DNA of 64,000 bases, taken from NCBI GenBank assembly GCA_016191285.1, contig JACPPA010000022.1, positions 1 through 64,000 of the forward strand, written 5' to 3'. The notes under the pieces are model-generated. The model was not told the DNA's origin, ran no database searches, and saw only the letters and a program-made list of their open reading frames with translations. Source of the stretch: Gammaproteobacteria bacterium. GTDB taxonomy: Bacteria; Pseudomonadota; Gammaproteobacteria; Ga0077536. Shown here one piece after another: positions 18,583 through 47,270 of this stretch (position 1 is its first letter; the number at the start of each line of letters is the position of its first letter). Position numbers and translations under genes: made by a program.

Positions 18583-19452
18583 CTAGCTAACTGGTGACTG
18601 GCCGTGGTGACATAGAAATCCGCGACGAATCGCGTCCGAGCCATCAGGATTCACCACACGGAACGCGAGTGCGTTCGCGGTTTGTCCTTCAACCACCAGC
18701 TTCAACAACGTGCCCAAGCGCACCATGCCAGCGAAGCGGCCGCCAAGGCGAGTGATAGACAAGGGATCGCCGCCCAAATATTCGCGCACGAGCACCGATA
18801 CCGCGCGCGCCAACGTGGCCGTGCCATGCAGGATGAGACCAGGCAAATTCGCGGCGAGCGCAGCCGCGCGATCCGTATGAATGGGGTTCCAGATCCGTGC
18901 GCCTTCGGTGTAGAGGTGGGCGGCATTGGCGGCGACGCAGAAGTCGAATTCGCGCGGCGTGGTCGGCGCGATGCCGGGCCAGGGTGGCGCGGTTTCGATG
19001 GCGGTCGCGGGCCCACTAAGCGGAACGCCACGGAATAAGGTGCCGTAGTACGTGCGACAGTAGCAGCTGCCGGCCAAGTCTACGGTATCGATGCGTTGCG
19101 TGAGATAAGCGCCGGGTCCGCGTTGTTCGACCGCGATCGCGGTGGCGGTGGTGCCGAGCACAAGGTCCGGGCGTAATGGCTGCAATAGATGGATATCGTG
19201 TTCGGCGTGCACCGCGCATGCGAGTTCAGCAGGGAGCAGCGATTGCATGCCGGGTCCGCGACGCTGGGTGAGCACGGCGTCCCATTCCAGGCACACCGGA
19301 AATACCGGATGCGCGGCGATTTGACGAGTCGTATCGAAGTAACACTCCGCCATGTCGTCGATACTCGCGGCGTACGCCATCAGCCAGCGGGCATCGACCG
19401 CATGCGTGAATTCGCCGGTGGGATGGCCAAGTACCTCGGAGGAAAGCGGCAT
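18583..19452 (-). CDS. MaoC-like hot-dog dehydratase
   Basis: This 289-residue protein is a double hot-dog enzyme of the MaoC/FAS1-dehydratase type, which hydrates or dehydrates 2-enoyl-CoA thioesters. The catalytic hydratase stretch is in the second half: IWNPIHTDRAAA (about 188-199) followed by LPGLILHGTATLARA. The conserved Asn and His of the R-hydratase motif are present. The first half (residues 8-150) is a second, non-catalytic hot-dog domain. It is co-directional with the MFS gene, which follows after 5 nt. It probably acts in side-chain or fatty-acid-like degradation; the substrate is unknown. Confidence 0.8.
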   Translation of the reverse strand: MPLSSEVLGHPTGEFTHAVDARWLMAYAASIDDMAECYFDTTRQIAAHPVFPVCLEWDAVLTQRRGPGMQSLLPAELACAVHAEHDIHLLQPLRPDLVLGTTATAIAVEQRGPGAYLTQRIDTVDLAGSCYCRTYYGTLFRGVPLSGPATAIETAPPWPGIAPTTPREFDFCVAANAAHLYTEGARIWNPIHTDRAAALAANLPGLILHGTATLARAVSVLVREYLGGDPLSITRLGGRFAGMVRLGTLLKLVVEGQTANALAFRVVNPDGSDAIRRGFLCHHGQSPVS

Positions 19453-19543
19453 AGATTTACACGCCTTGGACCATGCCCATTTACGATTGGATTGCCACCC
19501 TCACAATGATATCGAGTCCTTGCACGAGCCCTGGTACGTAGAA

Positions 19544-19622
19544 GATTCGCGGATAAATCCGCTCCCACAAATAAGACCCAGTCCAAGCACCGTTCCTGTG
19601 GGAGCCGCTTTAGCGGCGAATC
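19544..19622. repeat. REP-like inverted doublet
   Basis: Two facing copies of a 25-bp palindromic unit: GATTCGCGGATAAATCCGCT then CCCAC at 19544-19568, and GTGGGAGCCGCTTTAGCGGC then GAATC at 19597-19622. The unit (GTGGGAGCsGmTTTAkCsGCGAA) closely resembles the Pseudomonas REP sequence and recurs at 21035, 21094, 29933, 43553, 43591, 47188 and 47243. Inverted pairs a few tens of bases apart are typical of BIME elements. Confidence 0.75.
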
Positions 19623-19647
19623 TTTATTGGAGTCCCTCCGTCGCTAA

Positions 19648-19893
19648 GGAAACTCCGAATAAGTCCATTCCTGACTTTCGTCAGGACAGGCTCTGGACTT
19701 TGACTCGCCGCATGCTGAGGCTCGCCCTAGCGGGCCGCACGAGGTGCGTTCAAAATCGTTGCGGGCGATTTTGTCAGAGTACGGGAAGCAAAAAGTATGA
19801 TTTTTGCCTCCCTTCATTTGCAATGGTTTGCAACCATCGAAAATGGCGGCGCCTCCGAGTGCCTAGGGAAGCTCTGCCTTTTGCAGAGCTTCT
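19648..19893 (+). mobile_element. IS5-type MITE, copy 1 (non-coding, hairpin-rich)
   Basis: A 246-bp non-coding element flanked by a 4-bp direct repeat CTAA (19644-19647 and 19894-19897). Its ends are imperfect inverted repeats: GGAAACTCCGAATAAG at the left and AGAAGCTCTGCAAAAG on the opposite strand at the right (11 of 16 match). It is clearly homologous to the element at 36172. It contains an additional TCCTGACTTTCGTCAGGA hairpin (19669-19686) that the other copy lacks, plus three hairpins shared with it. The YTAR-type duplication is the IS5-group pattern. It encodes no transposase and would depend on one elsewhere. Confidence 0.8.
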
Positions 19894-19921
19894 CTAAAGC
19901 AATCCCGACAAAATTCGTGAA

Positions 19922-20977: not shown

Positions 20978-21119
20978 GGATTCGCCGTTCAAGCGGCTCC
21001 CTGGAGAAGCGCCCTGCGTCGATGGGTCGTCTGGTGTGGGAGCGGATTTATCCGCGAATCCCGACTGCCCGGGTAGCGATGGAAGCTGTAAGGGATTCGC
21101 CGCTAAAGCGGCTCCCACG
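20978..21119. repeat. Cluster of three REP-like palindromes
   Basis: Three units of the GTGGGAGCsGmTTTAkCsGCGAATC family occur in 140 bp: a degenerate one at 20978-21001 (GATTCGCCGTTCAAGCGGCT), a forward one at 21035-21060 and a reverse one at 21094-21119. The last two form an inverted pair 33 bp apart. They lie just downstream of the CmcJ-family gene, where they could act as mRNA 3' hairpins. Confidence 0.7.
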
Positions 21120-29932: not shown

Positions 29933-29995
29933 GTGGGAGCGGCTTTAGCCGCGAACGGGATTTCTCCAGAAGATTCGAAGCTCAAAGCGGCTCTC
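29933..29995. repeat. REP-like palindrome with degenerate partner
   Basis: GTGGGAGCGGCTTTAGCCGC then GAA (29933-29956) is followed after about 20 bp by a degenerate reverse copy (GCTCAAAGCGGCTCTCACC). It lies between convergent genes just after the second luciferase-like stop. A 3' hairpin or terminator role is plausible but unproven. Confidence 0.6.
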
Positions 29996-36104: not shown

Positions 36105-36171
36105 CGCCGGAATGACGACAAGTAACCTCTGTCTCACTTCGGGTGGCCGGTATTTCCAGTTCGTTATTTAG
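36105..36171 (-). repeat. 67-bp inverted repeat, copy B
   Basis: Reverse-complement partner of 32395-32461. Its outer end (GTTATTTAG) is immediately followed by the MITE at 36172, whose target duplication TTAG overlaps this repeat's last bases. The MITE therefore inserted at or inside a copy of this repeat. Confidence 0.75.
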
Positions 36172-36395
36172 GGAACCTCTGAATAAGTCCCTCCTGGACT
36201 GTTACTCGCCTCATCCTGAGGCTCGCCCTAGCGGGCCGCACGAGGTGCGTTCAAAATCGCGCTGGGCGATTTTGTCAGAGTAAGGAAAACAAAAAGTGTC
36301 ATTTTTGTTTTCCTTCATTTTCAACGGTCTTCGACCATTGAAAATAGCGGCACCTCCCTGTGCCCTAAGGAATCTCTGCCTTTTGCAGAGATTCC
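36172..36395 (+). mobile_element. IS5-type MITE, copy 2
   Basis: A 224-bp non-coding element flanked by TTAG on both sides (36168-36171 and 36396-36399). Terminal inverted repeats are GGAACCTCTGAATAAG on the left and GGAATCTCTGCAAAAG on the complement of the right end (13 of 16). Inside are four hairpins: 36252-36274, 36284-36313 (12-bp perfect stem), 36317-36345 and 36367-36397 (13-bp perfect stem over the right end). It is homologous to the copy at 19648 but lacks that copy's extra hairpin. Confidence 0.85.
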
Positions 36396-36502
36396 TTAGG
36401 TGGCGAAAATACGTCGCAGGGCTTGGGTAGGAAATGTAAGCGAGGAATCCTTGCCTGACCCCTGCGTATCTCGCTCTCGGAGTGCTCAGCGCGTTCGTGG
36501 AA

Positions 36503-43072: not shown

Positions 43073-43646
43073 ATAGCTCGCACTGTAACTTGAGACCAAC
43101 GCAGGCTTCGAGGCGGTGCCGACACCGGATGCTGCCTACCCGGTCAGCCCGGAAAGTGCGCAGCCCTTATAGACGTCACCCCGGAATTCGCGCAGCGAAA
43201 CTCCGGGGCGGGATCCCGCTGGTAGTTCAGGCGCCCCTGGATCCCGGGTCGGCGCGGCTGACGTGGCTCCGCCCGCGGGATGACCGACCGCACAATTTAG
43301 GTCGGGTGCGAAGGGCACTTGTTTAAGTGCGGTTTACGCCGTCACCCTGTGCGCCGAGCACTGGGTCCAGTGAAGAATGAATCCATTATTTGACTGGATT
43401 CCGGCGTTCGCCGGAATGACGAAGGGCCAAGCCGGCATTCGTCGGAATGACGAAGGGCCAAGATTGCGCATCTGTCCCGGCATTTCAGCTCAAGTAAGTG
43501 CCATTCAGGTCGGGTGCCTCATCTTGATCCCATGGCATCGAGGTGTCACTGTTGTGGGAGCCGCTTCAGCGGCGAATAAGGCCTTAAAAAGATTCGGCGC
43601 TACGGCGGCTCCCACCAATAGCGCGCTATATATTCAGCGCGTTTCG
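43073..43646. repeat. Repeat-rich intergenic region
   Basis: No gene is visible. It holds two CGGAAT.../GGGATCC-type palindromes (about 43180-43290), an ACTGGATTCCGGCGTTCGCC plus GGAATGACGAAGGGCC unit with a second partial copy (about 43393-43460), and an inverted REP doublet (43553-43577 and 43591-43616). The last one lies near the convergent EF-G-like gene. Confidence 0.6.
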
Positions 43647-47187: not shown

Positions 47188-47270
47188 CTTCGCCGCTGAA
47201 GCGGCTCCGAAGGGCCTCTGCTCTGCTCCAGAAGTGAATTTATTGTGGGAGCGGATTTATCCGCGAATTC
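47188..47270. repeat. REP-like inverted doublet
   Basis: A reverse unit (CTTCGCCGCTGAAGCGGCTC at 47188-47211) and a forward unit (GTGGGAGCGGATTTATCCGC then GAAT at 47245-47268). Both lie between convergent genes. Confidence 0.65.

Follow-up and report, generated by a model that had tools for sequence, protein, structure and literature searches.

Two homologous non-coding elements lie in the window, the whole 64,000-nucleotide stretch of DNA that was analysed. Element 1 (19648-19893, 246 bp) and element 2 (36172-36395, 224 bp) have exactly the coordinates and sizes given in the initial annotation, and their proposed homology is borne out by 85% identity over 201 bp. Element 1 lies between two copies of the target-site duplication CTAA (19644-19647 and 19894-19897), and element 2 between two copies of TTAG (36168-36171 and 36396-36399); no strand is assigned to the elements or their duplications. 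Both direct repeats are perfect, as had been claimed, and both fit YTAR, the target-site duplication motif of the IS5 group (PMC10359306).

Element 1 begins with the left terminal repeat GGAAACTCCGAATAAG (19648-19663, plus strand) and ends in a minus-strand hairpin (19867-19893) that includes the right terminal repeat AGAAGCTCTGCAAAAG and is of the 11-bp stem type, with the outermost pair lost. Core hairpins 3 and 4, CATTTTC..GCAAATG and GGGAGGC..GCTTCCC, occupy 19783-19845 on the minus strand and are conserved and covarying in relatives. Element 2 begins with the left terminal repeat GGAACCTCTGAATAAG (36172-36187, plus strand) and ends in the minus-strand hairpin GGAATCTCTGC-AAAAG-GCAGAGATTCC (36369-36395), which includes its right terminal repeat. 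Inverted repeats of about 16 bp had been proposed for both; the length holds, with imperfect pairing, 11 of 16 positions between GGAAACTCCGAATAAG and AGAAGCTCTGCAAAAG and 13 of 16 between GGAACCTCTGAATAAG and GGAATCTCTGCAAAAG. The non-coding status also stands: neither element contains a plausible gene, and the reading frames that cross them look incidental. One such frame, of 181 aa at 19352-19897 on the plus strand, spans all of element 1 and carries a risk of gene mis-annotation.

The covariance model of the family matches element 1 with 109 bits (minus strand, 19744-19893) and the whole of element 2 with 126 bits (minus strand). Comparison of copies shows that element 1 has some 94 additional bp at its left hairpin, within 19668-19773 (boundaries approximate), lacking in the common 152-bp form, and that element 2 has an extra module of about 74 bp in its left hairpin (36201-36274), likewise lacking in the common form; both are given without strand. 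By this comparison, the window copies are atypical long variants of a five-hairpin element of about 151 bp, whose additional module sits within or next to the left hairpin. Relatives of this module (..GCTCGCCCTAGCGGGCCGCACGAGGTGCGTTCAAAATCG..), 54 bp long, also occur elsewhere (L048, L054), where they stand without the remainder of the element. The two window elements are not chance arrangements, because the end motif, at zero or one mismatch, occurs in the whole window at four sites only, which are the ends of both elements, because both fold far more favourably than shuffled sequence (z of -6.5 and -11.1), and because many genomic copies carry the same type of duplication.

The insertion history can be read at a REP-like palindrome, GTGGGAGCSGCTTTAGCSGCGAATC, which occurs eight times in the window against zero expected, often as inverted pairs (19544-19568, 19598-19622, 21036-21060, 21094-21118, 29933-29957, 43554-43578, 43591-43615 and 47245-47269). 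The central TTAG of the REP is the insertion site of two full MITE copies, and removal of the element together with one TTAG gives back the REP, with 2 mismatches at one site and 3 at the other, so the 4-bp duplication was created by insertion. In the uninterrupted REP the 4-bp sequence is single; the repeats do not predate the element, a concern raised in the initial annotation.

Element 1 as a query gave at least 44 matches on many contigs of the 5.1-Mb genome. The end motif with up to two mismatches gave 246 matches against 86 for the reversed control, among the matches listed, and the right-end hairpin pattern gave at least 71 exact matches against 0 for its control, most of them in elements of about 151 bp. 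The commonest form in the genome is 151-152 bp long, accompanied by forms of 246, 223-224, 179, 176, 165, 158 and 86-88 bp and by remnants of about 66, 45 and 27 bp. The further copies that had been anticipated are thus numerous, and their duplications are mostly of the expected type: among the matches listed, 61 of 77 two-ended entries have a perfect 4-bp duplication, and 57 of those 61 fit YTAR, where most copies are entered once per strand and one-ended copies are excluded from the counts. The family is short, non-coding and multi-copy, with terminal inverted repeats and a target-site duplication made by insertion. The shortest derivatives, of about 27, 45 and 66 bp (L064, L084, L087, L116, L071, L101), retain the outermost end together with a YTAR duplication; they apparently arose by internal deletions at short repeats, alternative internal ends being judged less likely.

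In many copies in the draft, the sequence breaks off precisely at the apex of one of the two terminal hairpins and no duplication is present (examples are L010, L016, L066, L081, L083, L107 and L114), and where such one-ended copies are flanked by REP, the remainder of the REP is absent. The end of contig C28 and the start of contig C27 fall at the same apex positions, and in a genome assembled as a single contig, G159, the 40 best copies are all full length, under a ranking that favours full-length copies. One-ended transposition was set aside because of these contig breaks and full-length copies, and the one-ended copies in the draft are probably assembly artefacts. Forty other contig starts lie outside MITEs, so this reading is likely rather than proven.

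A candidate partner is present in the same genome. PF01609 has ten hits, of which one is an intact gene of 317 aa on contig C40, within an IS of 1158 bp (C40:93296-94453) that is bounded by GGAACTTCTGCATAAG and GGAACGTCTGAACAAG and flanked by a TTAG duplication. The protein carries the PF01609 and PF05598 domains and scores 337 bits against the IS5-family model NF033581 (cut-off 140). About 13-14 of 16 bases match between the MITE terminal repeats and those of this IS, which makes them close, not identical, and both have the same end asymmetry, with CTGCA at one end and CTGAA at the other; terminal repeats common to an autonomous IS join the 4-bp YTAR duplication and the intact IS5-family transposase as features of the system. 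Contig C48 (L127, from 1917 onwards) holds a second IS5-group element with a frameshifted transposase and the target-site duplication CTAA, and one of its ends is identical to a MITE right end.

The IS5-group reading of the initial annotation gains from the YTAR duplications, the restored REP sites and the intact IS with matching ends, and the cognate transposase it had suggested might be active elsewhere has a candidate in the C40 element, whose end motif is the same and whose duplication is TTAG. On this reading, an IS5-group DDE transposase would have acted in trans on both window elements, and it was probably encoded by the 1158-bp C40 IS or a close relative. The end and target anatomy is read directly; the enzyme would recognise GGAAnCTCTG ends and insert at YTAR with a 4-bp duplication. 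The C40 transposase may be active at present. That both elements are structured MITEs mobilised by an IS5-group enzyme is given a probability of roughly 0.9, a figure that covers their identity and excludes the mechanism of selection discussed below.

In hand-picked sets of other genomes, a related transposase is detectable in 8 of 24 MITE-rich genomes and 1 of 24 MITE-poor genomes. The 16 of 24 MITE-bearing genomes with no detectable related transposase count against the partner model; in them the partner would have been lost, have diverged or be absent from the draft assemblies. In G295, GGAAACGCTG marks the ends of the commonest IS, and CACTG or CGCTG takes the place of CTCTG in those MITE ends that were read; the CGCTG change is common to IS and MITE ends, which appear, in a few examples, to have changed together.

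The family extends well beyond this genome. The right-hairpin pattern was found in 31 of 369 genomes of the class, with 0 control matches in all, and a covariance model based on 18 elements identified the family in 60 of 274 such genomes, representing 45 genera, at E <= 1e-4. Genomes from other classes of the phylum also matched the model, with full-length scores of up to 115 bits, and several of seven such loci read directly have CTAA or TTAA duplications. Named matches in one collection were metagenome-assembled Gammaproteobacteria and the Olavius algarvensis Gamma 3 endosymbiont. A set of 74 elements drawn from many genomes includes 65 with a length of 149-153 bp and 39 with perfect YTAR duplications. 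Sampled relatives in the same genus gave at most short matches, so the distribution is patchy. A search of the plasmid collection with two distant copies gave no match.

Judged from its copies, the family has multiplied in a recent burst in at least one genome assembled as a single contig, G159, which holds at least 40 full-length copies that are 98-100% identical. Duplications there are perfect in 28 of 30 copies checked, with YTAR in 24, and the genome, the richest in MITE copies, also contains an IS in five copies, with a transposase that shares 74% identity with that of C40. At one locus (L216) the related IS adjoins a MITE, with CTAA between and around them, an arrangement that would follow from insertion of one into the duplicated target of the other.

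Most of the element is taken up by five hairpins; each terminal repeat makes up one hairpin arm, and several hairpin loops are conserved. In a structure alignment of 28 elements with mutual identity below 85%, 91.7% of cells at 60 base pairs can pair, a percentage inflated by choosing the pairs on the same alignment; the compensatory double changes, seen at 43 of the 60 pairs, are therefore the stronger evidence. The covariation score is 0.398, against 0.153 for shuffled data (0/500) and at most 0.115 for slid partners. This pattern describes the family core as a chain of five hairpins of about 151 bp, kept by compensatory change across many bacterial families.

The explanation preferred here, tentatively and at a little under even odds, is that the hairpins are selected through the transposition cycle at the DNA level, where only copies able to fold them would multiply. 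A constraint of this kind is suggested by stem changes in the young subfamily A (26 single, 0 double) and by the G159 copies, whose orientation shows no preference with respect to adjacent ORFs (tandem contexts 6 vs 7). The mismatch counts on one strand (G-T 75 against A-C 42) make a weak test: they are not independent and so only hint at strand-specific folding. A simple ORF heuristic places the G159 copies outside predicted ORFs, with convergent neighbours the most frequent setting.

Imperfect palindromes are known to undergo correction by template switching, and it is possible, though doubtful, that the stems of these IS5-mobilised MITEs are kept by such correction and not by selection on the fold. 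Copy L113, with two unique compensatory double changes, and the lack of strong asymmetry between G-T and A-C mismatches would suit that process. The complete lack of double changes in subfamily A argues for selection among multiplying lineages over rapid templated repair, and the conserved loops and the constant length across families would require a separate cause under templated correction. A role of the fold as RNA, in which transcribed copies would serve as terminators, attenuators or small RNAs to the benefit of hosts or elements, is unlikely. The covarying stems and conserved loops are like those of a structured RNA family, G-T exceeds A-C on one strand, the copies are intergenic and in G159 mostly between convergent ORFs, and small RNAs arise from Coxiella MITEs (PMC5896051). 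Set against an RNA role are the unbiased orientation towards neighbouring ORFs, a presence that is patchy even inside family and genus, and a search of Rfam 15 in which the best matches were far below gathering scores and no known structured RNA family was recognised.

REP/REPIN elements are moved by tyrosine transposases and, to our knowledge, have neither a YTAR duplication nor IS5-type ends. In intergenic position, high copy number and hairpins, the MITE is like REP/REPIN with RAYT (PMC3116915, PMC2817692), and a separate REP family is present in the genome. It is nevertheless highly improbable that the elements themselves belong with the REP/REPIN-like palindromes and travel as single-stranded DNA through the action of a RAYT (HUH) transposase: the 4-bp YTAR duplications contradict the RAYT criterion of none, the terminal inverted repeats are common to an IS5-group IS, and the MITEs are inserted into REPs rather than identical to them. 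Returning to selection in the transposition cycle, it is quite improbable that the family is an old phylum-wide lineage in which the folded single strand would be an obligatory substrate or intermediate for the IS5-group DDE transposase, an enzyme class thought to work on duplex ends. If true, this would mean structure-dependent transposition by an IS5-group DDE enzyme.

Correia, ERIC and RU elements are long-lived, structured small mobile repeats of Proteobacteria, with other ends and duplications and, as far as is known, a narrower taxonomic spread than the MITE here. RU elements are treated in PMC2759123. With the IS5 group of the IS5 family (NF033581) the MITE shares ends that begin with GGAA, the 4-bp YTAR duplication and the partner transposase family; unlike IS5-group ISs, it is about 151 bp long, has no gene and carries interior hairpins that were absent from the ends of the examined ISs. 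Like BrickBuilt/PgRS of Porphyromonas gingivalis and ATR of Neisseria, it is non-autonomous and intergenic, with repeats common to IS5-family ISs, but the end sequences differ, the duplications of BrickBuilt vary or are absent and it contains an internal minisatellite, and no comparable spread or covarying hairpins are reported for these elements in that source (PMC4596501). The Coxiella elements QMITE1 and QMITE2 are likewise high-copy structured gammaproteobacterial MITEs, with duplications of 2-3 or 7-11 nt, unlike those here, and QMITE1 is reported without orthologues in other genomes (PMC5896051). The duplications of Thiomargarita MITEs also differ (PMC4853749). The kind, an IS5-related MITE, is already known from Neisseria and Porphyromonas (PMC4596501). 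A description of the element was not found in the literature searched, and the family is apparently undescribed so far; new against these sources are the breadth of its distribution and its covarying five-hairpin design. The MITE is of a known kind, and the depth of its structural conservation is unusual.

Bacterial MITEs are usually regarded as short-lived, species-specific wrecks of IS. Here, one non-coding design of about 151 bp, with five hairpins and compensatory changes, occurs in dozens of families, in and outside the class. The covariance model can be used to annotate the family, whose repeats may mislead draft assemblies, and the question of what is selected in a MITE becomes directly testable.
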